Source of the DNA: Lachnospiraceae bacterium
Lineage (GTDB): Bacteria > Bacillota > Clostridia > Lachnospirales > Lachnospiraceae
Reading direction: 5' to 3'
Length of the DNA stretch: 51,704 nucleotides
NCBI GenBank assembly: GCA_016290905.1
Contig: JAEEVO010000010.1
Coordinates: 1-51,704 of the forward strand
Part shown: piece after piece, positions 591 to 31,856 of the stretch
Layout of the letters: the number at the start of each line of letters is the position of its first letter
How positions within the stretch are numbered: the stretch's first letter is position 1
Notes under the pieces: model-generated
What the model was told of the DNA's origin: nothing
The model's database searches: none
What the model saw: only the letters and a program-made list of their open reading frames with translations
Made by a program: the position numbers and the translations under genes

Positions 591-618
591 TTGACATTTT
601 AAAAAATTGGAGTATACT
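591..618 (+). promoter_or_regulatory. Sigma-A promoter of gltD
   Basis: A perfect -35 TTGACA (591-596) is followed after 16 bp by TATACT (613-618). Transcription should start near 625, only about 17 nt before the terminator hairpin at 642. Confidence 0.75.
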
Positions 619-641
619 GTTGTTTGAATTATTGAGGCAAG

Positions 642-678
642 GGTGTCTCGGATTGTATCCGAGGCACCTTTTCTTTTT
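642..678 (+). terminator. Leader terminator/attenuator upstream of gltD
   Basis: Ten base pairs (GGTGTCTCGG with CCGAGGCACC, one G-U) close a 7-nt loop and are followed by TTTTCTTTTT. The hairpin lies between the gltD promoter and the gene, so it acts as an attenuator unless it is bypassed. It is preceded by GAGGCAAGG, and a GGCAA motif also precedes both asnB leader hairpins. Confidence 0.75.
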
Positions 679-763
679 GCTTATAAGGTCTAAAGAGTAA
701 AGGATTGTCATCTTGAGAAGAAGCTGACACAAGAATAACCGAAAACAGAAAGGTGTGAAAGAA

Positions 764-2248
764 ATGGGTAAGCCTACAGGTTTTTTAGAGTATGAGAGAA
801 AGGACGGAGCGGTTGTTCCGGAGAAAGAACGTATAAAGAATTTCAATGAGTTTCACTCGAGTCTGTCACTTGAAGAGCAGAGAAAACAGGCAGCCAGATG
901 TATGGAATGCGGCGTTCCGTTCTGTCAGGCGGGCGTAAAGATTTCGGGAATGATATCGGGCTGTCCTTTGAACAATCTGGTACCTGAGGTTAACGATTTG
1001 ATATACAGAGGTAACTTTGCAGAAGCATACAGAAGACTTTCGATAACACATTGCTTCCCTGAGTTTACTTCCAGGGTTTGTCCTGCACTATGTGAGCATG
1101 CCTGCACATGCGGACTTCATCAGGCCCCCGTTTCCACCAAGGAAAACGAGAAAACCGTCATAGAATATGCTTTTGCCAACGGTCTGGTTGATGAGCCCGA
1201 ACCTAAGGTAAGGACCGGTAAAAAGGTTGCAGTCATAGGAAGCGGTCCTTCAGGACTTGCAGCGGCTCTTATGCTAAACAGAAGAGGCCATCTGGTTACC
1301 GTATATGAAAGAAGCGACCGTGTAGGCGGATTGCTAAGATACGGTATCCCGAACATGAAGCTTGACAAGAGCATAATAGACAGAAGAGTTGCTTTAATGG
1401 AAAAAGCAGGTATTACCTTTAAGGTAAGTATTGATATAGGAAAAGATATTACAGGAGAAGAGCTCTTAAAACAATATGATGCGGTTGTTCTTGCATGCGG
1501 AGCTTCACATCCGAGAGATATAAATGCACCCGGAAGGGATGCAGAAGGCATATATTTTGCGGTTGACTTCCTGAAAAAGGTAACAAAGAGACTGCTTGAT
1601 TCGGAGATGAAGGAATTTCCTTTTGATCTTGCAGAAGGAAAGGATGTAATAGTTATCGGCGGCGGCGATACAGGTAATGACTGTGTAGGTACATGTATAA
1701 GGCTGCACGCCAAGAGCGTGACACAGTTAGAGATGATGCCCGAGCCTCCGAAGGAAAGGCTGGAGTCAAATCCTTGGCCCGAATGGCCCAGAGTACTTAA
1801 GGTTGATTACGGACAGGAAGAAGCAATAGACCGGTTCGGTTCCGATCCCAGAATATATAAAACCACAGTTAAAGAGTTTATAAAGGACGAGAGCGGTAAG
1901 CTTAAGAGCGTTGTCCTTGTTTCGCTTGAATCAAAGAAGGACGAAAAGACAGGCCGTATGAGCATGGTTCCCGTTGAAGGTACCGAAAAGGAAGTACCTG
2001 CACAGCTGGTACTTATCGCAGCAGGTTTCCTCGGAAGTGAGAGTTATGTTACCGATTCCTTTAAGGTAGAGGTTGACGGCAGGACTAATGTAAAGACAGA
2101 TGCAGATAAGCATGCTGCTTCGGTAGCAAAGATATTTACTGCCGGTGATATGCACATCGGTCAGTCACTGGTTGTAAGAGCCATAGCTGAAGGCAAGGCA
2201 GCAGCCAGGGAAGTTGATGAGTACCTGATGGGATATTCAAATTTGTAA
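764..2248 (+). CDS. gltD: Glutamate synthase (NADPH) small subunit
   Basis: The product (494 aa) is the FAD/NADPH half of glutamate synthase, passing electrons from NADPH through FAD and Fe-S clusters to the large subunit. Visible motifs are N-terminal cysteines in CMECGVPFC (46-54) and SGCPLNN, a second Cys group in RVCPALCEHACTCG (105-117) that should bind [4Fe-4S], an FAD dinucleotide fold GSGPSG (159-164) and an NADPH fold GGGDTG (299-304). The ATG at 764 is preferred over the in-frame GTG at 755, because that GTG lies within the ribosome site AGGTG and the ATG has about 8 nt of spacing. The gene is followed 58 nt later by gltB, so the order is gltD-gltB. The promoter and leader terminator upstream imply attenuation control. 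Confidence 0.95.
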   Translation: MGKPTGFLEYERKDGAVVPEKERIKNFNEFHSSLSLEEQRKQAARCMECGVPFCQAGVKISGMISGCPLNNLVPEVNDLIYRGNFAEAYRRLSITHCFPEFTSRVCPALCEHACTCGLHQAPVSTKENEKTVIEYAFANGLVDEPEPKVRTGKKVAVIGSGPSGLAAALMLNRRGHLVTVYERSDRVGGLLRYGIPNMKLDKSIIDRRVALMEKAGITFKVSIDIGKDITGEELLKQYDAVVLACGASHPRDINAPGRDAEGIYFAVDFLKKVTKRLLDSEMKEFPFDLAEGKDVIVIGGGDTGNDCVGTCIRLHAKSVTQLEMMPEPPKERLESNPWPEWPRVLKVDYGQEEAIDRFGSDPRIYKTTVKEFIKDESGKLKSVVLVSLESKKDEKTGRMSMVPVEGTEKEVPAQLVLIAAGFLGSESYVTDSFKVEVDGRTNVKTDADKHAASVAKIFTAGDMHIGQSLVVRAIAEGKAAAREVDEYLMGYSNL

Positions 2249-2258
2249 TTAACAAGTG

Positions 2259-2283
2259 TCAATCATAGGACAGCTGTGATTGA
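2259..2283 (+). other. Small hairpin in the gltD-gltB spacer
   Basis: TCAATCA (2259-2265) pairs with TGATTGA (2277-2283) across an 11-nt loop. There is no T-run, so it is not a terminator. It may stabilise or process the mRNA between the two subunit genes (inference). Confidence 0.4.
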
Positions 2284-2306
2284 TCATGGGAGGATAGATA
2301 AGAATT

Positions 2307-5300
2307 ATGAAAATTACGTTGAATGAAGTGAATAAAAACGGTTTGTACAGCCCGGAATTTGAGCATGACAACTGTGGTATAGGAGCTATAGTTAATATAA
2401 AAGGAAAAGCCGGACACGGGATTGTTGCGGATGCTCTTTCAATAGTAGAGAACTTGGAGCACAGAGCAGGGAAGGACGCAGAAGGCAAGACCGGTGACGG
2501 CGTCGGCATCCTTACGCAGATACCTCATAAGTTTTTCAAAAAGGTGATGAAACAGCAGGGCATAGAGCTTCCCGAAAAAAGAGGCTACGGCGTCGGTATG
2601 ATATTTTTCCCGCAGGATGAGCTTCAGATGCGTCAGGCTAAGGCAATGTTTGAGGTTATAGTTAAGAAGAACGGTCTTGAGATACTTGGGTTCAGGAAGG
2701 TCGATACCAATCCGGGCGTGCTTGGTTCAAAGGCACTTGAGTGTATGCCCAATATATACCAGGTATTTATAAAAAGAAACGAAAAAAATTCGGATCTCGA
2801 TTTTGACAGATTATTATATATCATCCGCCGTGAGTTTGAGCAGAGTAATGTAAATACCTACATTCCGTCACTTTCGTGCAGGACTATAGTATATAAGGGA
2901 ATGTTCCTTGTAGGCCAGCTCCGTACATTCTTTAAGGATCTTATGGACAAGGATTACGAGTCGGCTATCGCTATGGTTCACTCGCGTTTCTCGACAAATA
3001 CGACACCCAGCTGGAACAGGGCTCATCCCAACAGGCTCATCGTTCATAACGGTGAGATAAATACCATCAAGGGTAATGCCGACAAGATGCTTGCCCGTGA
3101 AGAGACCATGCATACCAATGCATTCTCGGAAGAGGATATGACCAAGGTTCTGCCCGTTATCTCACAGAGCGGTTCCGATTCGGCCATGCTTGATAATACT
3201 CTTGAATTCCTGATGATGAGCGGCATGGAGCTTCCGTTGGCAGCTATGATCGCCATCCCCGAGCCTTGGGCACATAATGAGACTCTGTCCCAGGAGGAGA
3301 GGGATTTTTACCAGTATTATGCAACTATGATGGAGCCTTGGGACGGTCCCGCATCAATCGTATTCTCAGACGGAGATATAATGGGAGCCATTCTTGACCG
3401 TAACGGTCTTCGTCCTTCAAGATATTATGTAACGGATGACGACAGGCTGATCCTTGCAAGTGAAGTGGGCGTGCTTGATTTTGATGAAGAGCACATTGTT
3501 AAGAAGGAAAGACTCCATCCCGGAAAGATGCTGCTGGTTGATACGGTACAGGGCAGGATCATAGGAGATGAGGAGCTTAAGGAACGTTATGCCCATAAGG
3601 AGCCTTACGGCGAGTGGCTGGACAGCAATATCGTAGAGCTTCATGATGTTAAGATCCCCAATCTTAAAGTGCCCGCTTACAGCAGGGACGAGTTAAAGCG
3701 TCTGCAGAAATCCTTCGGTTATACATACGAAAACTATCATGATTCAATCCTTACAATGGCACTTAACGGTTCGGAGCAGATAGGCGCGATGGGTGTAGAT
3801 ATCCCGATAGCTGCGCTTTCCGACAGCTATCAGCCTCTGTTCTATTATTTTAAACAGCTGTTTGCACAGGTTACAAACCCTCCTATTGACGCCGAGCGCG
3901 AAAAGATTGTTACTTCCACTACGGTTTACGTTGGAAAGAACGGTAATCTCCTGGAGGAAAAGCCTTCAAACTGCCATGTATTAAAAATCCATAATCCGAT
4001 CCTGGCAGACCTCGATCTCTTAAAGATAGAGCATATGAAGAAGGACGGCTTTAAGGTAGCAAAGGTTTCCACATGTTATTATAAGGGAACCCCTATGAAA
4101 CGCGTTTTAAAGCATCTCTTCATTGAGGTTGACAAGGTTTACCGCGAGGGCGCTACAATCCTTATCCTTTCCGACAGGGGAGTTGACGAGAACCACGTTG
4201 CTCTGCCTTCACTGCTTTCGGTGGCTGCAGTACATAAGCATCTGGTTGAGACAAAGAAATCGACGGCTATGTCCATCATAGTTGAATCAGGTGAGCCAAG
4301 TGAAGTACATCACTTTGCCACACTTCTCGGTTACGGTGCATCCGCAGTCAACCCTTATCTTGCACATGCGGCAATCAAGGAGCTTGTTGATGAGGAGTTA
4401 CTTGACAAGGATTACTATGCAGCCGGCGAGGACTATGACAAGGCAGTTCTCCACGGTATCGTAAAGATAGCTTCCAAGATGGGTATCTCTACCATCCAGT
4501 CCTATCAGGGCAGCAAGATATTCGAAGCAATCGGTATTTCTGAGGATGTTATAAATGAATACTTTACCGGCACGGTTAGCCGTGTAGGCGGTATCTCTCT
4601 TGAGGAGATTGGAAAAGCTGTCGACAAACAGCATTCAAAAGCTTTTGATCCGCTGGGACTGGCTGTGAACAACGAGCTTACCGCATACGGCAGACATAAA
4701 TCAAGAAGTCAGGGAGAAAACCACAGGTATAATCCCGAAACCATACATATGCTCCAGACTTCAACGAGAGAGGGCAGCTTTGATAAATTCAAGCAGTACA
4801 CCTCAATGGTTGACGCGGAGGAAACAGGTTATTTAAGAAGCCTCATAGATTTCAATTATCCGGCTGAAGGCATTTCGATAGATGAGGTTGAAAGTGAGGA
4901 CGAGATAGTAAAGAGGTTTAAGACCGGTGCCATGTCCTACGGCTCAATCTCGGAGGAAGCACATACGGCACTTGCGATAGCCATGAACCATCTTCAGGGC
5001 AAGTCCAACAGCGGTGAAGGCGGAGAAAGCGATGAGAGGATCGCGACCGCCGGCACAAAGGACGACAGAAGCTCAAAGATCAAGCAGGTGGCAAGCGGAC
5101 GTTTCGGCGTTACCAGTGCTTACCTTATAAGTGCTCAGGAAATCCAGATAAAGATGGCGCAGGGAGCAAAGCCCGGTGAAGGCGGACATCTTCCCGGAAG
5201 GAAGGTATACCCCTGGATTGCCAAGACCAGACATTCGACGCCCGGCGTGAGCCTTATCTCACCGCCCCCGCATCATGACATTTACTCAATCGAGGATCTG

Positions 5301-6860
5301 GCAGAACTTATATATGACTTAAAGAATGCAAACAAAAAGGCAAGGATATCGGTCAAGCTGGTATCCGAGGCAGGTGTCGGGACCATAGCATCCGGTGTTG
5401 CAAAGGCAGGCGCACAGGTTATCCTTATTTCGGGGTATGACGGAGGTACGGGTGCGGCACCCATCAGTTCGATCCATAACGCAGGACTTCCTTGGGAGCT
5501 TGGACTTGCAGAGACTCATCAGACCCTGGTAGCCAACGGACTTAGAAATAAAGTCATCATCGAGACCGACGGCAAGCTTATGAGCGGCAGGGATGTAGCT
5601 ATAGCAGCCATCCTTGGTGCGGAGGAATTCGGTTTTGCAACAGCTCCGCTTGTAACCTTAGGCTGTGTAATGATGAGAGTATGTAATCAGGATACCTGCC
5701 CCATGGGTATAGCCACACAGAATCCCGAGCTTAGGAAGAGGTTTATAGGAAAGCCTGAGTATGTAGAGAACTTCATGAGATTTATTGCAAGGGAGCTTAG
5801 GGAATACATGGCTAAGCTTGGCGTAAGGAGCATGAAGGAGCTTGTGGGAAGGACCGACCTCTTAAAGAGTAAGGCTGCAAAGGATGATAAAAAGGCAGCC
5901 ATCGACCTTTCGAAGATTCTCTGTGATATGTCAAAGGTAGATAAGGATCAGCAGGTATTTGACGCCAAGAACCTTTATGATTTCAAACTCGAAGAGACGG
6001 TTGACGAGAAAGTACTCTTAAAGGATAAGAGTGTGCTTAAGGCAGTCAAGGACGGAAAGGCCTGTGAGATCTCGGTGGATATAAAGAATACCGACAGAAC
6101 CTTCGGAACACTGCTTGGTGCAGAGATAACAAGGCTTCATCCCGAGGGATTGCCTGAGGATACCATCACCGTTAACTGTAAGGGTGCGGGCGGACAGAGC
6201 TTCGGTGCATTTGTTCCGCAGGGTCTTACACTTAAGATCACAGGTGATTCAAACGATTACTTCGGGAAGGGTCTTTCAGGCGGAAAGCTTACGGTTAAGG
6301 CTCCCGATAATGCAAAGTACGATCCGAGCGAGAACATCCTTATCGGTAACGTTGCGCTTTACGGAGCAACTTCGGGCGAGGCATATATAGCAGGAATGGC
6401 AGGAGAGAGATTCTGCGTAAGAAATTCCGGTGCAACCGCAGTTGTTGAAGGTGTCGGCGAGCATGGATGCGAATATATGACAGGCGGCGTGGCAGTGATC
6501 CTCGGACCTACGGGCAAGAACTTCGCAGCCGGTATGAGCGGCGGTATCGCTTACGTACTTGATGAGGGCAATAAATTATACCGCAATCTCAACAAGCAGT
6601 TAGTCAGCATGAAAACCGTTGAGAGCAAGGAAGATATAGACAGACTAAAGAGCATTATTGAAAAACATGAAGCTGCTACAGGCTCGAAAAAGGCTAAAAG
6701 GATACTTGATAATTTTGATTCTTACATAGGGAATTTTAAAAAGATCATTCCTATGGATTATCAGAAGATCATGAGCCTTATTGATGAAAACATATTAAAG
6801 GGCTTGAGCAGGGAAGAAGCACAGATCAAAGCATTTACTGATTTTATAGGTGAAAAATGA
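2307..6860 (+). CDS. gltB: Glutamate synthase large subunit
   Basis: The product (1517 aa, the usual length for the family) makes two glutamates from glutamine and 2-oxoglutarate together with GltD. The N-terminal class II (Ntn) glutaminase begins at Cys23 in HDNCGIGAIV, after a 22-residue propeptide that should be removed. A central domain is followed by the FMN-binding synthase domain, with ISPPPHHDIYSIEDL and GYDGGTGAAP, and by the 3Fe-4S cysteines in LGCVMMRVCNQDTCPMG near residue 1120. The C-terminal glutamate-synthase beta-helix carries GAGGQSFGAF and repeated G-x-x-G segments. The ATG at 2307 follows GGGAGGAT at good distance. The glutaminase, ammonia channel and synthase domains are all present, and no defect is seen. 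Confidence 0.97.
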   Translation: MKITLNEVNKNGLYSPEFEHDNCGIGAIVNIKGKAGHGIVADALSIVENLEHRAGKDAEGKTGDGVGILTQIPHKFFKKVMKQQGIELPEKRGYGVGMIFFPQDELQMRQAKAMFEVIVKKNGLEILGFRKVDTNPGVLGSKALECMPNIYQVFIKRNEKNSDLDFDRLLYIIRREFEQSNVNTYIPSLSCRTIVYKGMFLVGQLRTFFKDLMDKDYESAIAMVHSRFSTNTTPSWNRAHPNRLIVHNGEINTIKGNADKMLAREETMHTNAFSEEDMTKVLPVISQSGSDSAMLDNTLEFLMMSGMELPLAAMIAIPEPWAHNETLSQEERDFYQYYATMMEPWDGPASIVFSDGDIMGAILDRNGLRPSRYYVTDDDRLILASEVGVLDFDEEHIVKKERLHPGKMLLVDTVQGRIIGDEELKERYAHKEPYGEWLDSNIVELHDVKIPNLKVPAYSRDELKRLQKSFGYTYENYHDSILTMALNGSEQIGAMGVDIPIAALSDSYQPLFYYFKQLFAQVTNPPIDAEREKIVTSTTVYVGKNGNLLEEKPSNCHVLKIHNPILADLDLLKIEHMKKDGFKVAKVSTCYYKGTPMKRVLKHLFIEVDKVYREGATILILSDRGVDENHVALPSLLSVAAVHKHLVETKKSTAMSIIVESGEPSEVHHFATLLGYGASAVNPYLAHAAIKELVDEELLDKDYYAAGEDYDKAVLHGIVKIASKMGISTIQSYQGSKIFEAIGISEDVINEYFTGTVSRVGGISLEEIGKAVDKQHSKAFDPLGLAVNNELTAYGRHKSRSQGENHRYNPETIHMLQTSTREGSFDKFKQYTSMVDAEETGYLRSLIDFNYPAEGISIDEVESEDEIVKRFKTGAMSYGSISEEAHTALAIAMNHLQGKSNSGEGGESDERIATAGTKDDRSSKIKQVASGRFGVTSAYLISAQEIQIKMAQGAKPGEGGHLPGRKVYPWIAKTRHSTPGVSLISPPPHHDIYSIEDLAELIYDLKNANKKARISVKLVSEAGVGTIASGVAKAGAQVILISGYDGGTGAAPISSIHNAGLPWELGLAETHQTLVANGLRNKVIIETDGKLMSGRDVAIAAILGAEEFGFATAPLVTLGCVMMRVCNQDTCPMGIATQNPELRKRFIGKPEYVENFMRFIARELREYMAKLGVRSMKELVGRTDLLKSKAAKDDKKAAIDLSKILCDMSKVDKDQQVFDAKNLYDFKLEETVDEKVLLKDKSVLKAVKDGKACEISVDIKNTDRTFGTLLGAEITRLHPEGLPEDTITVNCKGAGGQSFGAFVPQGLTLKITGDSNDYFGKGLSGGKLTVKAPDNAKYDPSENILIGNVALYGATSGEAYIAGMAGERFCVRNSGATAVVEGVGEHGCEYMTGGVAVILGPTGKNFAAGMSGGIAYVLDEGNKLYRNLNKQLVSMKTVESKEDIDRLKSIIEKHEAATGSKKAKRILDNFDSYIGNFKKIIPMDYQKIMSLIDENILKGLSREEAQIKAFTDFIGEK

Positions 6861-6889
6861 TATGAGAAGCCAATTTTTAGAAAAAAAGG

Positions 6890-6918
6890 TTGACAAATGC
6901 CGCAACGTGAGTTAATAT
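6890..6918 (+). promoter_or_regulatory. Sigma-A promoter of asnB
   Basis: TTGACA (6890-6895), 17-bp spacer, TAATAT (6913-6918). The -35 begins 30 nt after the gltB stop, so asnB has its own promoter. Confidence 0.75.
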
Positions 6919-6938
6919 ATCTTTTCATAAGGGCAAGG

Positions 6939-6970
6939 GAGTCTTTGAACACAGGTTCAAAGACTCTTTT
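6939..6970 (+). terminator. First leader terminator of asnB
   Basis: An 11-bp perfect stem (GAGTCTTTGAA with TTCAAAGACTC) closes a 6-nt loop CACAGG and is followed by TTTT. GGGCAAGG directly precedes it. It lies about 15-20 nt after the expected transcription start. Confidence 0.65.
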
Positions 6971-6987
6971 AACATTATAAAGGCAAT

Positions 6988-7031
6988 GGTGTCTTATATC
7001 CGTTTGATGGCGGTATAAGGCACCCTTTTTT
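6988..7031 (+). terminator. Second leader terminator of asnB
   Basis: GGTGTCTTATATCCG pairs with CGGTATAAGGCACC with one bulged T and one G-U, then a run of six T. The GGTGTCTTAT strand resembles the gltD hairpin GGTGTCTCGG, and both are preceded by GGCAA. With the first hairpin it gives asnB two terminators in tandem. Confidence 0.75.
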
Positions 7032-7134
7032 ATGTGAGAAGCTGATCCCGACAATGGAAGCTGGAATTCAAATTGTTGGCTGAGCAAACAGAGCGTATTA
7101 GAAAATAATATAGAGAACCGGGAGGATTGATCAT

Positions 7135-8763
7135 ATGTGTTCGATTATGACATATTGTGATGATAATGTTGATTACGATACATTTAAGGAGGGTTTTGAC
7201 AAGACTGTATCACGTGGTCCCGATGACAGCCGTATAATATCGCTAAAGAACGGTGTCATGGGTTTTCACAGGCTTGCTATCATGGGACTTCATCCCGAGG
7301 GAATGCAGCCGTTTGAGAGAGATGGAAGTTACGTAGTATGTAACGGTGAGCTTTATGGGTTTAAGGAGATGAGGGATGATCTTATTAAGAAAGGATATAC
7401 CTTTGAGAGCGACAGCGACTGTGAGATAATCCTTCCCTTATACTTTGAATACGGAACGGATATGTTCAGGATGCTCGATGCGGAATATGCATGTGTGATA
7501 TATGATGCAAGGACCGATGAATATATAGCAGCAAGGGATCCGATAGGGATCAGGCCTCTTTACTACGGCTATGATGAAGAGGGTGCGATCGTATTTGCCA
7601 GCGAGCCGAAGAACATTGTAGGGATAGTTGACAGGATCATGCCTTTCCCTCCCGGACATTATTATAAAGAAGGAAGATTTGTCTGCTACAATGATATTTC
7701 AAAGGCAGCATTTGTTACGGAAAGCGGATACGCAGACGGAACGGGAACCGTCAGGGAATATATAAAGGATGATATTGAGACCATAACGAAAAACATTCAT
7801 GATAAGCTTGTGGCAGGTGTTGAGAAGAGGCTTGTGGCTGATGCCAAGGTAGGCTTCCTGCTTTCGGGCGGACTTGATTCTTCACTTGTATGTGCAATTG
7901 CAGCACGTAAATCCGACAAGCCCATCCGTACATTTGCCATCGGAATGACAGAGGATGCGATCGATCTTAAATATGCAAAACAGGTAGCGGATTACATAGG
8001 AAGCGACCATACAGAAGTATATATGACTCCCGAACAGGTAATAAGCTCTCTTGAGGATGTAATACATCTGCTCGGAACCTATGATATTACTACGATAAGA
8101 GCCAGCATGGGTATGTACCTTGTATGTAAGGCGATACACGAGACGACCGATGAGAGGGTGCTTCTGACCGGTGAGATATCCGATGAGCTTTTCGGTTATA
8201 AATATACCGATTTCGCACCCAGTGCGGAGGAATTCCAGAAAGAGGCTGAGAAACGTATCCACGAGCTTCACATGTATGATGTTCTCCGTGCTGACAGATG
8301 CATTTCCGTTAACTCGCTTGAGGCACGTGTTCCCTTCGGTGATCTTGATTTTGTAAAATACGTAATGTCGATCGACCCCGAGATCAAGCTGAACAAGTAC
8401 GGAAAAGGAAAGTACCTTTTAAGAAAGGCATTTGAAAAGGGCGGCTATCTTCCCGATGAGATCCTTTGGCGTGAGAAGGCAGCGTTCTCAGATGCGGTCG
8501 GACATTCCATGGTTGATTACCTTAAAGAATATGCCGAAAAGACAATATCCGACGAGGAGTTTAATCAGGAGTGCAATAAGTACACATATGCAACTCCGTT
8601 TACCAAGGAATCATATCTTTACAGGAAGATTTTTGAAAAGTATTATCCCGGACAGGCCAGAATGGTTGTTGATTTCTGGATGCCCAACAAGAGCTGGGAA
8701 GGCTGCAATGTAAACGATCCTTCGGCAAGAGTTCTTTCAAACTACGGTGACAGCGGTAAGTAA
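7135..8763 (+). CDS. asnB: Asparagine synthase (glutamine-hydrolysing)
   Basis: The product (542 aa) converts aspartate to asparagine using ATP and glutamine. Cys2 of MCSIMTY is the class II glutaminase nucleophile exposed after Met removal. Other glutaminase landmarks are RGPDDSRI, GFHRLAIMG and VVCNGELYG. The C-terminal ATP-pyrophosphatase domain has the PP-loop LSGGLDSS near residues 243-250, then GEISDELFGY and SLEARVPFGD. The start ATG follows GGGAGGATTGATC. The length fits bacterial AsnB. The 5' region carries its own promoter and two leader terminators; purF follows after 103 nt with no clear promoter and may be co-transcribed (inference). Confidence 0.95.
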   Translation: MCSIMTYCDDNVDYDTFKEGFDKTVSRGPDDSRIISLKNGVMGFHRLAIMGLHPEGMQPFERDGSYVVCNGELYGFKEMRDDLIKKGYTFESDSDCEIILPLYFEYGTDMFRMLDAEYACVIYDARTDEYIAARDPIGIRPLYYGYDEEGAIVFASEPKNIVGIVDRIMPFPPGHYYKEGRFVCYNDISKAAFVTESGYADGTGTVREYIKDDIETITKNIHDKLVAGVEKRLVADAKVGFLLSGGLDSSLVCAIAARKSDKPIRTFAIGMTEDAIDLKYAKQVADYIGSDHTEVYMTPEQVISSLEDVIHLLGTYDITTIRASMGMYLVCKAIHETTDERVLLTGEISDELFGYKYTDFAPSAEEFQKEAEKRIHELHMYDVLRADRCISVNSLEARVPFGDLDFVKYVMSIDPEIKLNKYGKGKYLLRKAFEKGGYLPDEILWREKAAFSDAVGHSMVDYLKEYAEKTISDEEFNQECNKYTYATPFTKESYLYRKIFEKYYPGQARMVVDFWMPNKSWEGCNVNDPSARVLSNYGDSGK

Positions 8764-8816
8764 TGGGTCGGGCTTATATAACAGAATCAGAGATGCTAAG
8801 CAGTGTTTTGTTACCG

Positions 8817-8841
8817 AGGAAACGCTGAAGGCGTTTTCAAG
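8817..8841 (+). other. Short hairpin upstream of purF
   Basis: GAAACGC pairs with GCGTTTTC around the loop TGAAG. The string CTGAAGGCGTTTTC and the following GTGAC-NN-TGAC-N-GAAG recur near 26948 upstream of the BceR-type regulator gene. There is no convincing T-run. The role is unknown. Confidence 0.4.
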
Positions 8842-8866
8842 GTGACAATGACAGAAGGGTAGAAAA

Positions 8867-10264: not shown

Positions 10265-10272
10265 AAAAAATG

Positions 10273-10301
10273 TTGACAACTTAATAAAAAAAGAATAAAC
10301 T
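10273..10301 (+). promoter_or_regulatory. Sigma-A promoter of carAB
   Basis: TTGACA (10273-10278), 17-bp spacer, TAAACT (10296-10301). It begins 9 nt after the purF stop. The same -35, spacing and -10 precede dapL at 31771. Confidence 0.8.
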
Positions 10302-10316
10302 AGTTGTTCGAAGAAG

Positions 10317-10360
10317 CAAAGGCGTTTCGGGGTTAGTGTCTCGAAGTGTCTTTGTTTTTT
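10317..10360 (+). terminator. Leader terminator/attenuator of carA
   Basis: A continuous 15-bp stem (10317-10331 with 10340-10354, including G-U pairs) is followed by six T. The loop is GTTAGTGT; if its outer G-U pairs, a hexaloop TTAGTG remains. It starts about 15 nt after the -10 box. The 5' strand matches the dapL leader hairpin at 14 of 15 positions. Confidence 0.8.
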
Positions 10361-10391
10361 AGTTTTGGATTTCCGGAAAGGAATTTCAGCT

Positions 10392-11519: not shown

Positions 11520-11520
11520 C

Positions 11521-11549
11521 GTCATTCTGAGCGTTAGCGAAGGATGACA
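11521..11549 (+). repeat. Dispersed intergenic repeat, copy 1
   Basis: The unit GTCATTCTGAGCG followed by TTAGCGAAGGATGAC begins one base after the carA stop codon. It is partly self-complementary. Related copies lie at 14817, 14859 and 49311. Confidence 0.7.
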
Positions 11550-11614
11550 AAAAGAGCTTAAGTTAACGATGTTAGGATAAACTATGAATAACAGAGTAGG
11601 AGCAGAAGAAGATC

Positions 11615-14600: not shown

Positions 14601-14794
14601 TAAAGGCCGGCTATGTAAGCTATGTTATCTGTACAAGAGCGATCCTTTCCGGAGTTCATTATGTCGACGGTATAGCCATAAGAAAATGTGCTTCTCATAA
14701 CGGCATAACGATGCTTACCTCGCTTGATACCGTAAGAGTGCTGCTGGACGTTCTTGAGGAACTTACCATCGGTATCTCTACGATCGACGCCTGA
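11615..14794 (+). CDS. carB: Carbamoyl-phosphate synthase large subunit
   Basis: The product (1059 aa) uses bicarbonate, two ATP and ammonia from CarA to make carbamoyl phosphate. The internal duplication is clear: [18 protein letters not shown] near residue 13 and [17 protein letters not shown] near residue 553, each followed by an ATP-grasp domain with [15 protein letters not shown] in the first half and [18 protein letters not shown] in the second. The C-terminal MGS-like allosteric domain (from about residue 930) is intact. The ATG at 11615 is preceded by GTAGGAGCAG. It shares the carA transcript. Confidence 0.97.
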
Positions 14795-14816
14795 TTGAAA
14801 ATTTTGTTAAATCTGT

Positions 14817-14918: not shown

Positions 14919-14951
14919 GGCTCAAGACCAAGATAAACCCCGAAAAAATAA

Positions 14952-17994: not shown

Positions 17995-18018
17995 GACATA
18001 CACCTCCTCTTTTTTATC

Positions 18019-19389: not shown

Positions 19390-19404
19390 TGAAAGGAGAG
19401 GGAA

Positions 19405-23994: not shown

Positions 23995-24241
23995 GATCAA
24001 CATAGAGGTTAAAATACCCGGCAATGCAAAGACCTATGATTTCCAGGTGGATGACAGGATGAAGGTAGGCACGGCCAAAAAAGAGATCATGTCTGCTATA
24101 GCTGATTTTGAAGGCTATAACATATTTAACGGAACCAAGGACATCGCAATCTGCTCTGTAGAGCTTGAAGGTCTTATTGAAGACGGAGAAAGTTTCCACA
24201 CAGTAGGCATAAAAAACGGCAGTCAGCTGGTAATAGTATAG
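23987..24241 (+). CDS. esaB: EsaB/YukD-like ubiquitin-fold protein
   Basis: The 84-aa product has the layout of YukD/EsaB: beta strands INIEVKIPG and KTYDFQV, a helix VGTAKKEIMSAI, and the end GSQLVIV. In T7SSb this small cytoplasmic ubiquitin-like protein is a regulator or core component. It overlaps essC, and its ribosome site AAAGGAGGACG lies inside essC. Family assignment rests on size, fold pattern and neighbourhood. Confidence 0.85.
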   Translation: MSKINIEVKIPGNAKTYDFQVDDRMKVGTAKKEIMSAIADFEGYNIFNGTKDIAICSVELEGLIEDGESFHTVGIKNGSQLVIV

Positions 24242-24251
24242 GAGGTAGGTT

Positions 24252-24566
24252 TTGGATCAGAGTAGAATATCAGTAGATACTGAGGCTCTTATGGGAGCCG
24301 CAGAAAAAGTGGATAAGTCTGTCAGCGACATTCAGGCAAATATCCAGAAGTTTCAGTCTGTTATCGAGGGTCTTAACAATACTTGGAGCAGTGATGTAAA
24401 AAACAAGTTTTTTACCAGCTACGAGAAAGACCTGAAGGCTCTTAACGAGATGGTTTCACAGTACAGCGAGGTTTCTTCCGGGTTGAGGACTATCGCCGAT
24501 TACCACCAGAAGAACGAGGAAACCATAAAGAGTCACATAGATAAAGCACACAGAACTTACGGTTAG
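24252..24566 (+). CDS. WXG100-family protein 1
   Basis: The 104-aa product shows two helices joined by a W-x-x turn (LNNTWSSDVK near residue 49), as in EsxA-type helical-hairpin proteins secreted as dimers by T7SS. The C-terminal YHQKNEE lacks the acidic residue at the exact position of the YxxxD/E export motif. The start is TTG at 24252, five nt after GGAGGT and the only reasonable start in frame. The gene begins 10 nt after esaB. Confidence 0.85.
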   Translation: MDQSRISVDTEALMGAAEKVDKSVSDIQANIQKFQSVIEGLNNTWSSDVKNKFFTSYEKDLKALNEMVSQYSEVSSGLRTIADYHQKNEETIKSHIDKAHRTYG

Positions 24567-24576
24567 GAGGCACACA

Positions 24577-24894
24577 ATGGCAGGAGATACTAATAAGGTC
24601 GATACCGCCCAGCTCGTTTCGGCAGCATCTGATATCGGTAATATCAAAAAGAATATTACTACAAGCGTTGAGTCTGTAAACGCAGTATTCAGAAAAATGT
24701 TCGAAACAAATGCGGGTAAATCGTCCGACGAGCTGAGCGCCGTAGTCGGGCAGCTCAAGAAAAGCTCTGCGGAGATCATAAATATGCTTGCAAGGTATGA
24801 AACAGTGCTTAAGGAAATCGCGGGAATCTATGATACCACGGAAAACAAGACAAGTAATGCTGCGGGCAAATTAAAGTTTGGAGGGTTGCGCTGA
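24577..24894 (+). CDS. WXG100-like protein 2 (no Trp-x-Gly)
   Basis: This 105-aa protein has the length and all-helical pattern of its neighbours, but the turn reads NAGKSSDEL with no tryptophan. It keeps a C-terminal YDTTE that fits the YxxxD/E export motif. Loss of the W suggests a diverged or obligate-heterodimer partner (inference). The ribosome site is GGAGGCACACA. Its TGA shares one base with the next ATG. Confidence 0.8.
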   Translation: MAGDTNKVDTAQLVSAASDIGNIKKNITTSVESVNAVFRKMFETNAGKSSDELSAVVGQLKKSSAEIINMLARYETVLKEIAGIYDTTENKTSNAAGKLKFGGLR

Positions 24895-25184
24895 TGGCAA
24901 ATATCAATATAAACACCACTGAAGTAAGGCGTCAGGCAAGACTGTTAAAGGAAGCATCGACACAGCTCATTAACGGTACAGTAAAGCCCATGGATGAAGT
25001 AAATCAGAGCATACAGTCCATATGGACGGGAGATACTGCAAGGCTTTTCCTTAAGTATGCGGATGAATTAAAGACAAATTTAAAGTCAAACGCACAGGAC
25101 ATAAACGAGATCAGCGTATTCCTGACCGAAGCATGTCAGGCAATCGAAAGAGCGGAACGTGAAGCAAAAGCTAAGGTTAAATAA
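24894..25184 (+). CDS. WXG100-family protein 3
   Basis: The 96-aa product has the true WXG turn (SIWTGDTARLF near residue 44) between two helices. It ends in a charged helix, with no Tyr for a YxxxD/E motif, so it may be exported only with a partner. Start overlaps the previous stop (TGATG) and is preceded by GGAGGGTTGCGC. Confidence 0.88.
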   Translation: MANININTTEVRRQARLLKEASTQLINGTVKPMDEVNQSIQSIWTGDTARLFLKYADELKTNLKSNAQDINEISVFLTEACQAIERAEREAKAKVK

Positions 25185-25206
25185 AATATTATAAGGAGGT
25201 TGCACA

Positions 25207-25509
25207 ATGGCGACACAACAGGTAAATGCGGCAAAATTGAAGAAGGCCGGAAACGATCTTAACGATCTTTCAGCAAAGATGAAATCAGAGATGAACAAGC
25301 TCGACGAGAATATCCAGAAGGTATCTTCCGTATGGAGCAGTGATGCAAGCGCAGCTTATGTTAAGAAGTATAATGACAACAAGGCAAATCTGGATGAACT
25401 GGTACGTATCCTTCAGGAATTCGGCACATCGCTCAATACTTTTTCACAGAATTATACACAGGCAGACAATAAAGCTACCGATCTTATCGGAAAGTATCTT
25501 GGCAAATAA
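25207..25509 (+). CDS. WXG100-family protein 4
   Basis: The 100-aa product has the turn SVWSSDASAAY near residue 40 and a YTQAD motif (YxxxD) in the second helix, the expected T7SS export signal. The ribosome site is AAGGAGGTTGCAC. Helical-hairpin organisation matches the neighbours. Confidence 0.88.
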   Translation: MATQQVNAAKLKKAGNDLNDLSAKMKSEMNKLDENIQKVSSVWSSDASAAYVKKYNDNKANLDELVRILQEFGTSLNTFSQNYTQADNKATDLIGKYLGK

Positions 25510-25521
25510 AGGAGAATAAAG

Positions 25522-25833
25522 ATGGCAGAACAGATAAAGGTTAATACCCAACAACTCAAGAACTATTCAAACGAGATCAAGAACGGCTACAAGAACATGT
25601 ACCAGTATTTATCACAGAGCAAGACCATCGTTAAGGGCTTAAAGTCAAGCTGGACAGGTGCCGGAGCAAATGATTTCTATACAAGATTCGACAGCATCAT
25701 GACAAAGTGCGAATCCACACTTAACATTGTAAACACCTATGCTTTAACACTTTCGGAGACAGCAGATGTTTACGCTCAGAATGAACAGAAGGTAAGTGAC
25801 AAAGCTAACAAGCTTAAGATCAAGCTTAAATAA
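25522..25833 (+). CDS. WXG100-family protein 5
   Basis: The 103-aa product has the canonical WTG turn (LKSSWTGAGANDFY near residue 42) and YAQNE (YxxxE) in the C-terminal helix. The ribosome site is AAAGGAGAATAAAG. It is the last small protein of the tandem array, 12 nt before the next gene. Confidence 0.88.
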   Translation: MAEQIKVNTQQLKNYSNEIKNGYKNMYQYLSQSKTIVKGLKSSWTGAGANDFYTRFDSIMTKCESTLNIVNTYALTLSETADVYAQNEQKVSDKANKLKIKLK

Positions 25834-25845
25834 CAGGAGGGGCTT

Positions 25846-26793
25846 ATGGCATCCATAAAGATAGCGGTTACGGAATTAAGCGCTAAGAAAGCCACATATA
25901 CCAAGGCTGCCAGGAATCTGAGAGACATAATCCAGACTCTTAACAAGGCAAGGACATCCATAGGAAACGACAGGATGTTCGACAGGGCAAAGCAGTCTAT
26001 CAAGAAGCTTGTGGATCTCCTTGACAGAAGAGCATTTGAGCTTGAGGCTTTGGCACAGGTCATGGGAACATCGGCAGACAGCTATAACAATGCCCAGTCA
26101 CATGTCGTATCGGTCGTATCGGATTACAAGGCACATAAACAGGACTTCTACGGAAATCCCGTACATGTTTCGGGCGCAGCAGGCGGAGCTTCAGGAGCTG
26201 CCGCAGCTGCAACAACGGCATCTGCACCGTCAGGATCTTCGTCATATGCGGGAGGATCGTCGTCTGCAGGATCGGGATCGTCGGGAACATCCTATACAAC
26301 AAACACATCGAGCACTGCAAGCACCGGTTCAGCAGGCGGAGCTGCAGGTGAAAGTCCGGTTGTAAACAACTACAGTGAAACTACGGTAAATAACTATACC
26401 CAGAACAATATATACGTTTCATCTTCGGATGCGGTGGGAGCAGCGGGAGCAGCTGCATCAGCAGCGCCTGCGGCAGCTGATGTTGTTCAGACCTCTGCAG
26501 CAAGCGTTGCATCGGCAGCACCTGCAGCAGCAGGAGTGGCTGCAGAAGCAGCATCCTCGGGCGGCGGACTCGGCGCGGCAGCCATCGGCATCGGTATAGG
26601 TGCTGCAGCTACGGCTGCGGGAATAGGTGCGGCAGGCATCATTTCCTCGAAGAAGAAGGAAAAGAAGGAAAAGGGCGTTTCTTCCGAAAACAGTGAAATA
26701 GACAAGAAACTGGCAGAAGCAAGAAAGAAGCTTAGCGCTCTTGAAAATGAAGAGGAAGTCTTAAAGGCAAATCTTACGGAAGTAACCGAATAA
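25846..26793 (+). CDS. ESX-like protein with Ala/Gly/Ser-rich middle and C-terminal coiled coil
   Basis: The 315-aa product starts with about 100 helical residues resembling the array proteins but without WXG. A low-complexity Ala/Gly/Ser/Thr stretch follows (about 105-165), then Asn/Tyr-rich VVNNYSETTVNNYTQNN, then a second Ala-rich stretch. A hydrophobic segment at about 243-268 (GLGAAAIGIGIGAAATAAGI) may cross the membrane. A Lys-rich patch (SSKKKEKKEKG) and a charged coiled coil end the protein. It could be a secreted effector, a needle or anchor component, or a membrane adaptor; no toxin domain is visible. The ribosome site is AGGAGGGGCTT. Confidence 0.75.
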   Translation: MASIKIAVTELSAKKATYTKAARNLRDIIQTLNKARTSIGNDRMFDRAKQSIKKLVDLLDRRAFELEALAQVMGTSADSYNNAQSHVVSVVSDYKAHKQDFYGNPVHVSGAAGGASGAAAAATTASAPSGSSSYAGGSSSAGSGSSGTSYTTNTSSTASTGSAGGAAGESPVVNNYSETTVNNYTQNNIYVSSSDAVGAAGAAASAAPAAADVVQTSAASVASAAPAAAGVAAEAASSGGGLGAAAIGIGIGAAATAAGIGAAGIISSKKKEKKEKGVSSENSEIDKKLAEARKKLSALENEEEVLKANLTEVTE

Positions 26794-26866: not shown

Positions 26867-26867
26867 T

Positions 26868-28756: not shown

Positions 28757-28821
28757 TGTCACACTGAAAAGCTGAAATGTCACACGAATCGATTTTGACA
28801 TCTCAGTTTTTTTGGTATTAT
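28757..28821 (+). promoter_or_regulatory. Promoter of bceAB-like genes with two direct-repeat boxes
   Basis: Two copies of TGTCACAC (28757-28764 and 28778-28785) lie 21 bp apart, two helical turns, just upstream of -35 TTGACA (28795-28800). The -10 is either TATTAT (15-bp spacer, 28816) or TATGGT (18-bp spacer). Poor spacing plus phased repeats fits an activated promoter, presumably bound by the neighbouring OmpR-type regulator (inference). Confidence 0.65.
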
Positions 28822-28841
28822 GGTACCAAGGGAGAAAGTTA

Positions 28842-28874
28842 AAAAGTCTATTAAGCTTGCTTAAATAGACTTTT
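28842..28874 (+). other. Leader hairpin before the bceA-like gene
   Basis: AAAAGTCTATTAAG pairs with CTTAAATAGACTTTT around CTTG with one bulged base. The 3' arm ends in TTTT, so it may be a weak terminator or attenuator 20 nt into the transcript. Confidence 0.55.
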
Positions 28875-28940
28875 ATGACTTTCGCAATCCGTAGCATAAA
28901 CTTGACTAAAAAGCATTATGATCACAAAAGGAGAGAACAT

Positions 28941-29696
28941 ATGACTATCTTGGAAGTAAATGGCGTTCAGAAAATATACACGACACGTTTCGGTGGAAAC
29001 AAGGTAAGGGCGCTTGAAAACGTAAACTTCTCAGTAGAGGAAGGCGAATATGTAGCGATAATGGGAGAGTCCGGTAGCGGCAAGACCACACTGCTGAACA
29101 TTCTGGCGGCACTTGACAGACCTACAAAGGGAAGCGTCCGCTTGGACGGCATGGAGCTTACTGAGGTAAAGGAAAGCGAGATGGCGGCATTCAGGCGGAA
29201 AAATCTCGGATTTGTATTTCAGGAATTTAATCTTCTTGATACCTTTTCGATACGGGACAACATACTGCTCCCGCTTGTACTTGACAGGCAGGATATAAAG
29301 CAGATGATGGGAAAGCTTGAAGAAATAGCATCGGCGTTCAACATAAGTGAGATACTTGATAAATATCCTTATGAAGTATCGGGCGGACAGAAACAGCGTG
29401 CGGCTGCGGCCAGGGCGATAATAACCGAACCGAAGCTGTTGCTCGCGGATGAACCGACCGGAGCGCTTGACTCAAAATCAACCGACGGGATGCTGAAGAT
29501 TTTTTCACAGATAAACGAAAAGGGACAGACGATACTCATGGTAACACATTCGACAAAGGCCGCAAGCCACGCAAAACGGGTCCTCTTCATAAAGGACGGT
29601 GAGGTATATCACCAGTTATACCGCGGAGAATCAAGAGCCGAGGAGTTTTACGGAAAGATAACGGACACACTTTCGGTATTTTCAAAGAATGAATAA
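28941..29696 (+). CDS. ABC transporter ATP-binding protein (BceA-like)
   Basis: The 251-aa product has Walker A GESGSGKTTLLN, Q-loop FVFQEFNLLD, signature SGGQKQRAAAARA, Walker B LLLADEPTGALD and H-loop THSTKAA, a complete ATPase of the BceA/LolD type. ATG 28941 follows AAAGGAGAG; upstream in-frame codons from 28875 lie in the leader hairpin region and are unlikely to be used. It pairs with the permease gene 18 nt downstream for peptide-antibiotic resistance and signalling. Confidence 0.92.
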   Translation: MTILEVNGVQKIYTTRFGGNKVRALENVNFSVEEGEYVAIMGESGSGKTTLLNILAALDRPTKGSVRLDGMELTEVKESEMAAFRRKNLGFVFQEFNLLDTFSIRDNILLPLVLDRQDIKQMMGKLEEIASAFNISEILDKYPYEVSGGQKQRAAAARAIITEPKLLLADEPTGALDSKSTDGMLKIFSQINEKGQTILMVTHSTKAASHAKRVLFIKDGEVYHQLYRGESRAEEFYGKITDTLSVFSKNE

Positions 29697-29714
29697 AGGC
29701 AAAGGACAGGGAAT

Positions 29715-31763
29715 ATGAAAAACTTTTATATAAAAACAGCATTAAGCAATCTGAAGAAAAACTCAAGATTGTATATTCCTCAGGTAATATCCGGAGCCGT
29801 GATGTACAGTGTTTTTTACATTATGCTGAAGCTCTGCTATGAAGAAAAACTTTTATACGGCAGGGGATCACGGTATATCCCGACATTCATGGCCATCGGC
29901 TGCGCGGTCATGCTCATTCTGTCGGCAGTCATGATCTTTTATTCAAACGGCTTTTTGATGAAGCAGAGGAAAAAGGAATACGGACTGTATAACGTACTCG
30001 GACTCGAAAAACGGCACGTTATACTGATAATGTTCTTTGAAAACATAATCTCGTTTGCAGGTCAGATACTCGGCGGGATCGTCATCGGCGTAAGCTTTTA
30101 CAGACTGAGCACGCTGCTGATATCAAAAATCATGGATAACAGCAACATATCCGGGGCATCCGTATTCAGCGGAAAAGTCGTGCTGTTTACAACAATTGTG
30201 TTTTTGATGCTGTTTGTACTAACGTTCATCTACAATGTGATCTCGATAAAGAAACTTAACCCGGTAGAGCTGATGAAGGCTTCATCAACGGGCGAAAGGG
30301 AACCGAAGGTAAAGTGGATCATGTTTTTGCTGGGAATCATTTTCCTCGGCGCAGGATACTGGCTGGCGGTGTCTCTTGAAACGCCGCTGCGCGCACTGAT
30401 GGGCTTCTTTATTGCAGTAATACTGGTAATAGTGGGAACGTATTTCCTCTTTACGGCAGGAAGCATTTTTATACTTAAGGCATTAAAGAAGAATAAAAAA
30501 TACTATTACCATCCCGAGCATATGATATCGGTATCGGGCATGCTGTACAGGATGAAGCAGAATGCGGCCGGACTTGCTTCCATAGCCATACTTGCAACAG
30601 GAGTGCTCATCATGATATCCTCTACGGTTTCTCTGTACGGCGGTGTGGAGGAATCCATAGCAAAGATGTACCCGCAGGATCTGTATTTTTCTTCATATTT
30701 CATTACAAGGGAGGATACCCAATACAATACCAGGTGGGTAACATATGAAGAAGCTGAAAAGGTATTAAGGGAGAGCGCGGAAAAGGCGGGCGTGGAAGTG
30801 ACCATGTTTGGCCGGGAGGAATACTTTGAGACCGCATATATACTGGATAATGACGAACTGAAAGCTGAGGTTGAAAATCCGACGTCATCCACCTTTTTCG
30901 AATCGGGCCTGAGCAGTTCGAAAGTGAAATGTATAACCTTTATAGATACGGACTGCTATAACAGCCTTACCGGGGAAAATCTTGTGCTTGGTGAGGATGA
31001 GATGGCTCTCGCAGCTATGTCGGGCGGAAAATGGAAGCCGGAAAAGGTAAAAATAGCCGGTCTTGAACTAAAGTGCAAAAGCAGGCTTGATCAAATACCG
31101 GTTTATTCTGAGGTTGGTACGATCGTGGACTGTTATCTCATGGTGGTAAGCTCCGGGAACTACCGGGTGATATTTGACGAGCAGAAGGAGAAGTACGGAG
31201 ATTCTGCCTCCGAGATAGAAAAACGTTTTGTAGCAAATATAAAGGGTGAGGACGAAAACAGGGAGAAGCTGGAGAATATATATCTTAACATGATCAATGA
31301 CTATCTTAAAGAGGATGAAGACTGGTGCAGTACCAGGTGGAATTCTTCATGGGATATGAGGACGGATTTTTATGACATGAACGGGAGCCTTATGTTCCTG
31401 GGCATACTCCTTTCGATAGTCTGCCTGATTTCAACCGCGTTGATAATCTATTACAAGCAGATTTCCGAGGGTTATGATGACAGGAATAAATTCCAGATCA
31501 TGCAGAAGGTGGGTCTTTCGAGAGAAGAAATAAAAAAGACCATACGGAGCCAGATACTGACCGTGTTCTTCCTGCCGCTCATAGTCGCAGGCATACATAC
31601 GCTTGTCGCTTTTCCCATGATCACAAAACTGATGGCGATGTTGTCCGTATTCGGTGCAGAGATACTCCTGCCGTGCCTTGGCATAGTATTTGCTGTATTC
31701 GCACTTGTTTATGTTGTGATATACAGCATTACGGCTAAGACATATTACAAAATAGTCCGATAA
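29715..31763 (+). CDS. ABC transporter permease (BceB/FtsX-like)
   Basis: The 682-aa product begins KNFYIKTALSNLKKNSRLYIPQ, has four N-terminal TM helices, further TM pairs near 200-260 and 290-310, then a large extracellular domain (about 315-560) and three C-terminal TM helices. This is the BceB layout, whose outer domain detects bacitracin- or lantibiotic-like compounds. It completes a regulator-kinase-ATPase-permease detoxification module. A ribosome site GGACAGGGAAT precedes ATG 29715. Confidence 0.9.
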   Translation: MKNFYIKTALSNLKKNSRLYIPQVISGAVMYSVFYIMLKLCYEEKLLYGRGSRYIPTFMAIGCAVMLILSAVMIFYSNGFLMKQRKKEYGLYNVLGLEKRHVILIMFFENIISFAGQILGGIVIGVSFYRLSTLLISKIMDNSNISGASVFSGKVVLFTTIVFLMLFVLTFIYNVISIKKLNPVELMKASSTGEREPKVKWIMFLLGIIFLGAGYWLAVSLETPLRALMGFFIAVILVIVGTYFLFTAGSIFILKALKKNKKYYYHPEHMISVSGMLYRMKQNAAGLASIAILATGVLIMISSTVSLYGGVEESIAKMYPQDLYFSSYFITREDTQYNTRWVTYEEAEKVLRESAEKAGVEVTMFGREEYFETAYILDNDELKAEVENPTSSTFFESGLSSSKVKCITFIDTDCYNSLTGENLVLGEDEMALAAMSGGKWKPEKVKIAGLELKCKSRLDQIPVYSEVGTIVDCYLMVVSSGNYRVIFDEQKEKYGDSASEIEKRFVANIKGEDENREKLENIYLNMINDYLKEDEDWCSTRWNSSWDMRTDFYDMNGSLMFLGILLSIVCLISTALIIYYKQISEGYDDRNKFQIMQKVGLSREEIKKTIRSQILTVFFLPLIVAGIHTLVAFPMITKLMAMLSVFGAEILLPCLGIVFAVFALVYVVIYSITAKTYYKIVR

Positions 31764-31770
31764 AAAAATG

Positions 31771-31799
31771 TTGACATTATCGGGAAAAAGAGATAAACT
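31771..31799 (+). promoter_or_regulatory. Sigma-A promoter of dapL
   Basis: TTGACA (31771-31776), 17-bp spacer, TAAACT (31794-31799), the same hexamers and spacing as the carA promoter. Confidence 0.8.
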
Positions 31800-31814
31800 A
31801 TGTTTCTGAAGAAG

Positions 31815-31856
31815 CAAAGACGTTTCGGGTAAGAGCTCGAAGTGTCTTTGTTTTTT
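31815..31856 (+). terminator. Leader terminator/attenuator of dapL
   Basis: A 15-bp stem (31815-31829 with 31836-31850) closes the hexaloop TAAGAG and is followed by six T. The preceding GAAGAAGCAAAG and the stem match the carA leader almost base for base. It starts about 15 nt after the -10 box. Confidence 0.8.

Follow-up and report, generated by a model that had tools for sequence, protein, structure and literature searches.

In the Enterococcus faecalis eut operon, the ANTAR proteins EutV/EutVW act on leader RNAs with hexaloops carrying A at loop position 1 and G at position 4 (A1/G4) on stems of at least three pairs that overlap an intrinsic terminator, and antitermination, in the available portions of the two reports, requires both of two such hairpins plus the short linker between them, which is naturally 5–12 nt long, with a drastic drop in induction at 14 nt and no antitermination after a 20-nt extension (PMC3369931; PMC8934654). 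In the EutV structure, both dimer chains touch one hexaloop, and the available text of that paper redefines the binding site as one hexaloop, keeps a model that still requires both for antitermination, and calls for bioinformatics on the extent of single-hexaloop use (PMC8934654). Here, we analysed a 51,704-nt stretch of Lachnospiraceae bacterium DNA (contig JAEEVO010000010.1 of assembly GCA_016290905.1; the whole stretch is called the window), in which the leaders of gltD, asnB, carA and dapL carry A1/G4 hexaloops overlapping terminators, and we conclude that such leaders likely constitute a glutamine/nitrogen regulon controlled through ANTAR antitermination at single hexaloops.

Several other described systems resemble these leaders in part. 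AmiR of the Pseudomonas aeruginosa amidase system and NasR of Klebsiella nasF act on leader terminators, as we propose here, and AmiR has a pseudo-receiver under its partner AmiC (available text of PMC8934654), a plausible mode here as well; by contrast, their targets are dual hexaloops as published (PMC3369931, in the part available), and the partner is not glutamine synthetase. In C. thermocellum, an ANTAR gene lies in the glutamine synthetase–glutamate synthase (GS-GOGAT) cluster and a NitR-type Clostridium antiterminator is cited, which likewise places an ANTAR-type gene, proposed as an antiterminator, near ammonium assimilation genes, but the available text describes no such leader structure or regulon (PMC4676874). 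ANTAR RNA candidates near nitrogen genes, for example Desulfotomaculum glutamate synthase, share with our leaders the Firmicutes and the idea of a nitrogen regulon, but the search that found them, as far as its available description goes, required two hairpins and thus probably missed single-hexaloop leaders (PMC3369931). The gltD motif of Selenomonadales/Veillonellales is also a promoter-near RNA upstream of gltD, but it belongs to other taxa and, in the accessible part of its report, is thought to occlude the ribosome-binding site (PMC8632094), whereas the leaders here match no Rfam family, glutamine riboswitches included, at the gathering cut-off or at an expectation value (E) up to 5. Searches of an open-licence library turned up no printed description of comparable single-hexaloop leaders.

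The window leaders share a promoter–hexaloop–terminator cassette

The original prediction, that gltD, asnB, carA and dapL share one promoter–terminator design, was borne out: the promoters at 591, 6890, 10273 and 31771 have TTGACA with 16–17 bp spacing and match 11, 10, 10 and 10 of 12 consensus positions, the terminators are found by consensus scan or by folding, and the hexaloop is shared by all. The elements are listed below; all lie on the + strand, and promoter scores are matches out of 12 consensus positions.

591..618, + strand: promoter of the gltDB operon, TTGACA, 16 bp spacer, TATACT, 11/12
632..651, + strand: single hexaloop hairpin of the gltD leader, loop AAGGGU at 639-644, 7 bp stem, proposed antiterminator
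639..678, + strand: intrinsic terminator of the gltD leader, with bases in common with the hexaloop hairpin, from folding (the consensus scan lists 639-671)
755-2248 and 2307-6860, + strand: gltD and gltB, glutamate synthase, Pfam for gltD
6890..6918, + strand: promoter of the asnB-purF operon, 10/12
6928..6947, + strand: hexaloop hairpin 1 of the asnB leader, loop AAGGGA at 6935-6940, 7 bp
6935..6970, + strand: terminator 1 of the asnB leader, UUUU only, overlapping hexaloop 1, from folding and absent from the consensus scan
6980..6995, + strand: hexaloop hairpin 2 of the asnB leader, loop AAUGGU at 6985-6990, 5 bp
6988..7031, + strand: terminator 2 of the asnB leader, from folding and absent from the consensus scan
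7135-8763 and 8867-10264, + strand: asnB and purF, glutamine amidotransferases, Pfam for asnB
10273..10301, + strand: promoter of carAB, 10/12
10313..10328, + strand: single hexaloop hairpin of the carA leader, loop AAAGGC at 10318-10323, 5 bp
10312..10361, + strand: terminator of the carA leader, with bases in common with the hexaloop, from folding (the consensus scan lists 10312-10359)
From 10392 and 11615-14794, + strand: carA and carB, carbamoyl-phosphate synthase, open reading frames
31771..31799, + strand: promoter of dapL, 10/12
31811..31826, + strand: single hexaloop hairpin of the dapL leader, loop AAAGAC at 31816-31821, 5 bp
31809..31856, + strand: terminator of the dapL leader, with bases in common with the hexaloop, from folding and consensus scan
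31882..33066, + strand: dapL, LL-diaminopimelate aminotransferase, Pfam aminotransferase class I/II

The names gltD/gltB, purF, carA/carB and dapL are those we presume from the look of the sequences. Taken alone, promoter and terminator consensus matches are weak evidence; over positions 1-18000, promoter-like sites numbered 43 where 30.4 would be expected, and terminator-like sites 25 where 14.8 would be. An A1/G4 hexaloop with an overlapping terminator (stem of at least 5 pairs, G-C closing pair, terminator of at least 11 pairs, with thresholds fixed after the leaders were known) occurred in the window only at 639, 6935, 10318 and 31816 on the + strand, with none on the − strand and none in 20 shuffled windows (mononucleotide shuffling in 500-base blocks). 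The string GCAANGGNGTNT on the hairpin 5′ arm is exact in four window hairpins and nowhere else in the window, and dapL has it with one mismatch; with one mismatch permitted, 11 occurrences against 9.1 expected are not above chance.

Folding of the 5′ part alone, that is, of the antiterminator form, makes loop A1 and G4 visible in all five window hairpins, and the same hexaloop appeared in 8/8 elements of the genome first examined. An antiterminator with a 10-nt loop, suggested by the initial fold, was dropped in favour of the 6-nt loop, and in gltD and the second asnB hairpin the folding program adds an A1-U6 pair across the loop. In the window leaders, the hexaloop stem and the terminator compete for the same bases. 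Across the eight own-genome elements, the terminator folds at −17.4 to −25.8 kcal/mol and the 5′ part, in its hexaloop form, at −3.6 to −7.2. The earlier view that both the A1/G4 loop pattern and paired hairpins were unclear therefore holds for the missing pairs only, since the loop pattern is present in all five hairpins.

Each leader is thus a cassette in which a sigma-70-type promoter is followed by an A1/G4 hexaloop hairpin at the predicted extreme RNA 5′ end, and the 3′ half of this hairpin doubles as the 5′ arm of the intrinsic terminator. We propose that the terminator, being far more stable, would form by default and RNA polymerase would halt after ~50 nt, while upon glutamine or ammonium shortage the ANTAR protein encoded beside glnA would bind the hexaloop and hold its hairpin, so that the terminator would be blocked and the gene transcribed. 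We infer that ANTAR binds the hairpins, that one hairpin is enough, and that the response runs in this direction.

Outside the window, the same genome has three further leaders, before glnN, pyrG and amtB. The GCAANRGNGTYT string is by itself unspecific (29 matches in the genome against 39 for the reversed control), and its matches are notable in context at the four window sites and at C165:2587, C165:2636 and C165:4982. The first two of these contig sites are tandem hairpins upstream of glnN, which encodes a type III glutamine synthetase, and the third is a single hairpin upstream of pyrG. The amtB leader is also tandem, with C81:3146 as a weaker model match (E 0.008), whose hexaloop stem holds one mismatched pair, and C81:3229 as the second hairpin.

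Two competing stems covary

A covariance model, R1, was built from a seed of the eight own-genome elements only, and a second model, R2, from a set reached by taking 26 from the 89 R1 matches to leave 63 (A1/A2/G4 loop, promoter of at least 9/12 or own genome, repeats excluded) and then leaving out 2 more. The first asnB hairpin is matched by R1 but not by R2 at E up to 0.01. The loop is conserved at A1 in 74/76, at A2 in 76/76 and at G4 in 76/76 aligned model matches, which comprise 69 distinct rows and derive from a seed that itself has the motif.

In the antiterminator stem, 76.7% of cells are paired, with a covariation score of 0.375 against at most 0.176 for slid versions and a score reached by 0/500 shuffles; the stem exceeds shuffles and slid versions in its share of paired cells, in double-change cells and in this score. 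The pair under the closing pair is kept in 66/67 (GC 34, AU 16, GU 16), whereas the two outermost of the seven tested pairs are formed in only 29/67 and 29/69, and the conserved stem is therefore about 5 pairs. The terminator, in 69 distinct aligned matches, is 97% paired with a covariation of 0.534 and stands above controls on all measures. The 5′-side positions of the antiterminator are not part of the modelled terminator, so that their covariation with the 3′ side is evidence for the antiterminator in its own right; the terminators of carA and dapL can reach into this 5′ side via U-tract pairing. Two published features of ANTAR targets are thus present, as in eut leaders: a covarying stem of at least three pairs under the loop, and overlap of the antiterminator with an intrinsic terminator.

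The leaders precede glutamine and nitrogen genes in relatives

The original prediction had proposed a covariance-model search of Lachnospiraceae genomes, and the genes behind the matches support a shared regulon. R1 matched 43/80 family genomes at E up to 0.1; searches over 40 genomes ran with stricter filters, with weak matches lost. Of its 89 matches, 62 precede labelled genes (glnN 20, asnB 9, purF 8, gltB 6, amtB 6, glnK 4, pyrG 3, dapL 2, and one each for gltD, carA, ATP-grasp and glnA) and 27 are without a labelled gene; low-scoring matches include ordinary or bidirectional terminators.

In contigs of named genomes, the promoter-to-hexaloop pattern, searched as an exact string, occurs in at least 119 stretches with 124 elements, of which 3 were set aside for too little DNA, leaving 121 scorable. 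The figures that follow hold among the matches listed. By title, the stretches are mostly Lachnospiraceae or unresolved Clostridiales/Eubacteriales, with Ruminococcus flavefaciens, Marasmitruncus, Sedimentibacter, a Selenomonadaceae metagenome-assembled genome and Candidatus Ruminimicrobiellum as exceptions. The culturable Lachnospiraceae species Roseburia hominis (L246) is among those with the pattern. Nitrogen or glutamine genes follow 114/121 elements, with 7 unassigned: glnN 50, amtB 21, purF 14, gltB 6, asnB 6, circularly permuted ATP-grasp 6, pyrG 3, and dapL, citrate synthase, carA and dapF 2 each. The label genes were picked after the first matches were known, with the ATP-grasp and citrate synthase labels taken from the named set itself, and without these 8 elements the count is 106/121. 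The promoter distance is 13-16 nt in 95/124 elements, a value partly fixed by the pattern.

This gene set, which differs from that of EutV, indicates a glutamine/nitrogen regulon: gltBD, asnB-purF, carAB, dapL, glnN, pyrG and amtB, joined in relatives by glnK and glnA. Leaders precede circularly permuted ATP-grasp genes in L164, L171, L197, L207 and L234, and citrate synthase carries one in L164 and L207 (Ruminococcus). At L169:2553-6731 (Candidatus Ruminimicrobiellum), the same leader stands before amtB, a gene for a PII-like protein and an ANTAR gene whose product retains the phospho-accepting aspartate (Asp). We take Candidatus Ruminimicrobiellum to be an Elusimicrobiota member, and this leader apparently belongs to another phylum.

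The leaders track an ANTAR gene encoded beside glutamine synthetase

The ANTAR domain (PF03861) is found in proteins of the relatives, with at least one gene in 88/100 family genomes and in 20/24 of the genus, usually one per genome. With the window's own genome excluded from all tables, R1 at E up to 0.1 matched 42/68 family genomes with ANTAR against 0/11 without, and R2 at E up to 0.01 matched 62/68 against 0/11, a result that is partly circular since the source genomes of R2, own excepted, all have ANTAR. In family genomes unused in building R2, the counts were 27/33 against 0/11. The 11 family genomes lacking both belong to 11 genera, and 7 are at least 93% complete. In the class outside the family, R2 matched 56/96 genomes with ANTAR against 16/92 without at E 0.01, 43/96 against 6/92 at 1e-3 and 34/96 against 2/92 at 1e-4, where genomes unlisted as ANTAR matches, and G164 with a match below the Pfam cut-off, counted as without. 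Cleaner figures come from R1, from the 33 family genomes unused for R2 and from the class outside the family; the compared genomes share ancestry and are not independent observations.

The ANTAR gene lies directly after glnA in 27/28 labelled family genomes and in 6/6 same-genus loci, and the product of this glnA-adjacent gene is the probable reader of the hairpin. The exception is a CTP synthase–ANTAR fusion, L102:628-2382 on the − strand (Pfam CTP_synth_N, GATase and ANTAR). No other ANTAR match occurs in that genome, and the fusion gene adjoins a glnN that bears the leader. The AlphaFold model of a same-genus ANTAR protein (predicted local distance difference test score 88.6) has EutV bound to RNA as its top PDB match. 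With EutV numbering mapped by us onto the proteins, 28/28 retain the RNA-contacting residues E160 and M172 and likewise K149 (28/28, where the anchor required K or R), and the Y164 position has H, F or Y in 28/28. By contrast, EutV is phosphorylated, whereas the phospho-Asp place of the receiver holds G, N, S, V, E or A in 35/36 proteins, with Asp in the L169 protein only; the phospho-accepting receiver of the EutV type is thus almost always lacking. Two single frames, G277:C397 (261 aa) and G294:C292 (257 aa), have two ANTAR matches each, possibly a built-in dimer.

The glnA RNAs are glutamine aptamers. They serve similar gene sets elsewhere, according to the available part of one report (PMC2864571), and some ANTAR-less class genomes have leader matches, so another protein or a small molecule might bind the hairpin, with ANTAR co-occurring only as a nitrogen gene of the same lineages. 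We consider this unlikely, because the hexaloop with its A1/G4 rule is the one published for ANTAR, no leaders were found in the 11 ANTAR-less family genomes of 11 genera, a hairpin of ~16-20 nt would be small for a metabolite aptamer, and no Rfam family matches.

One hexaloop at the predicted RNA 5′ end

The gltD, carA and dapL leaders each contain a single hexaloop, and that of asnB contains two, far apart and each with its own terminator. Among unique R1 elements whose hexaloop stem counts 3 or more pairs, 54/75 have a promoter of at least 10/12 (shuffles 2.4%), and among those with a promoter of at least 9/12 the loop starts 10-20 nt past the −10 in 56/59 and the stem 7-15 nt past its end in 55/59. 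Transcription normally starts 6-9 nt beyond the −10, and the RNA would therefore begin at most a few bases from the hexaloop stem. Two hexaloops with a short linker, as published, are thus not the arrangement here: leaders mostly have one, at the RNA 5′ end, and the own-genome tandems are ~50-75 nt apart. Since both EutV dimer chains touch one hexaloop, a single 5′-terminal hexaloop suits that structure, but not the published kinetic model.

Canonical dual-hexaloop leaders, with the first hairpin (P1) overlooked or two leaders cooperating, would fit the two hexaloops of the own-genome asnB, glnN and amtB leaders and closely spaced matches in G173 and G283, yet this is very unlikely, as the gltD, carA, dapL and pyrG hexaloops start about where the RNA should start, no P1 candidate lies 0-16 nt upstream in any of 63 elements (0.5 expected by chance), and the own-genome tandems exceed the EutV linker of 5-12 nt, as given in the available text of PMC3369931 and PMC8934654. 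A palindromic operator in the DNA, spanning about +1 to +20 and recognised by a repressor or an activator, with the terminators incidental, would account for the narrow range of promoter distances but is highly improbable, given that two mutually exclusive RNA stems both covary, that second copies in asnB, glnN and amtB lie farther from the promoter, and that the leaders co-occur with an RNA-binding protein family.

Other features of the window

The promoter at 41505 upstream of hydE had been thought similar, but it is not a member: 41505-41610 holds a promoter plus terminator, with no A1/G4 hexaloop with a stem >2 pairs and no covariance-model match. A 12/12 promoter-like site at 41852 overlaps the earliest candidate start codon in the hydE-like frame; translation of this frame may actually begin further downstream. 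An S10-Clostridia ribosomal protein leader lies at 49488-49572 (Rfam, 84.4 bits), and 28821-29001 gives a weak Clostridiales-1 RNA match (27.2 bits against a cut-off of 48). The genes at 18232-26793, with an FtsK/EssC-like ATPase and several WXG-like proteins of ~100 aa, look to us like a type VII secretion cluster, and those at 33512-40241 presumably encode a type I restriction-modification system (R, S, M), with additional small genes interspersed.

Discussion

The hexaloop, the covariation, the gene set and the co-occurrence support the earlier suggestion of a common antitermination system with ANTAR as candidate. There is good support that the leaders work like ANTAR antitermination, though the paired hairpins, a defining feature of the published family, are missing, and the leaders are for this reason a variant of ANTAR targets.

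Several observations weigh against single-hexaloop ANTAR antitermination. EutV requires both hairpins, in the available parts of PMC3369931 and PMC8934654, and its R142, K143, K147, R168 and N173 are not conserved among the 28 proteins. An ANTAR gene was not found in the window's own genome (assembly 81% complete) nor in 3/23 congeners (G100-G102), one of them 93% complete, while all 24 genomes have leaders; real loss may have occurred in these four, although 4/24 misses compare with 3.3 expected from incompleteness. The own genome has two type III glutamine synthetases, and type I glnA was not found there or in G100-G102. In addition, 16/92 ANTAR-less class genomes have R2 matches at E up to 0.01 and 6 at 1e-3, and six ANTAR-bearing family genomes have no R2 match. 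At the RNA level, two of the five antiterminator measures are reached by shuffles, namely pairs with changes on both sides (69/500) and pair types (41/500), and the carA 5′ part folds best unconstrained as another hairpin (−5.9 against −3.9 for the hexaloop form).

Gene order, the pseudo-receiver (compare AmiR/AmiC, available text of PMC8934654) and the CTP synthase fusion point to glutamine synthetase, or its glutamine state, as the likely input. We tentatively advance, as a real possibility of less than even weight, that a single 5′-terminal hexaloop is a complete switch for the main glutamine/nitrogen regulon of Lachnospiraceae and much of Clostridia, read by a glnA-linked pseudo-receiver ANTAR protein over which glutamine synthetase, or a different glutamine enzyme, has direct control. 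If so, in the CTP synthase–ANTAR fusion a metabolic enzyme itself would be the RNA-binding antiterminator.

As natural, family-wide single-hexaloop terminators that track an ANTAR gene, these leaders make the question raised in PMC8934654 directly testable. They are also a candidate main switch of ammonium and glutamine metabolism for the Lachnospiraceae, which are common in gut and rumen.

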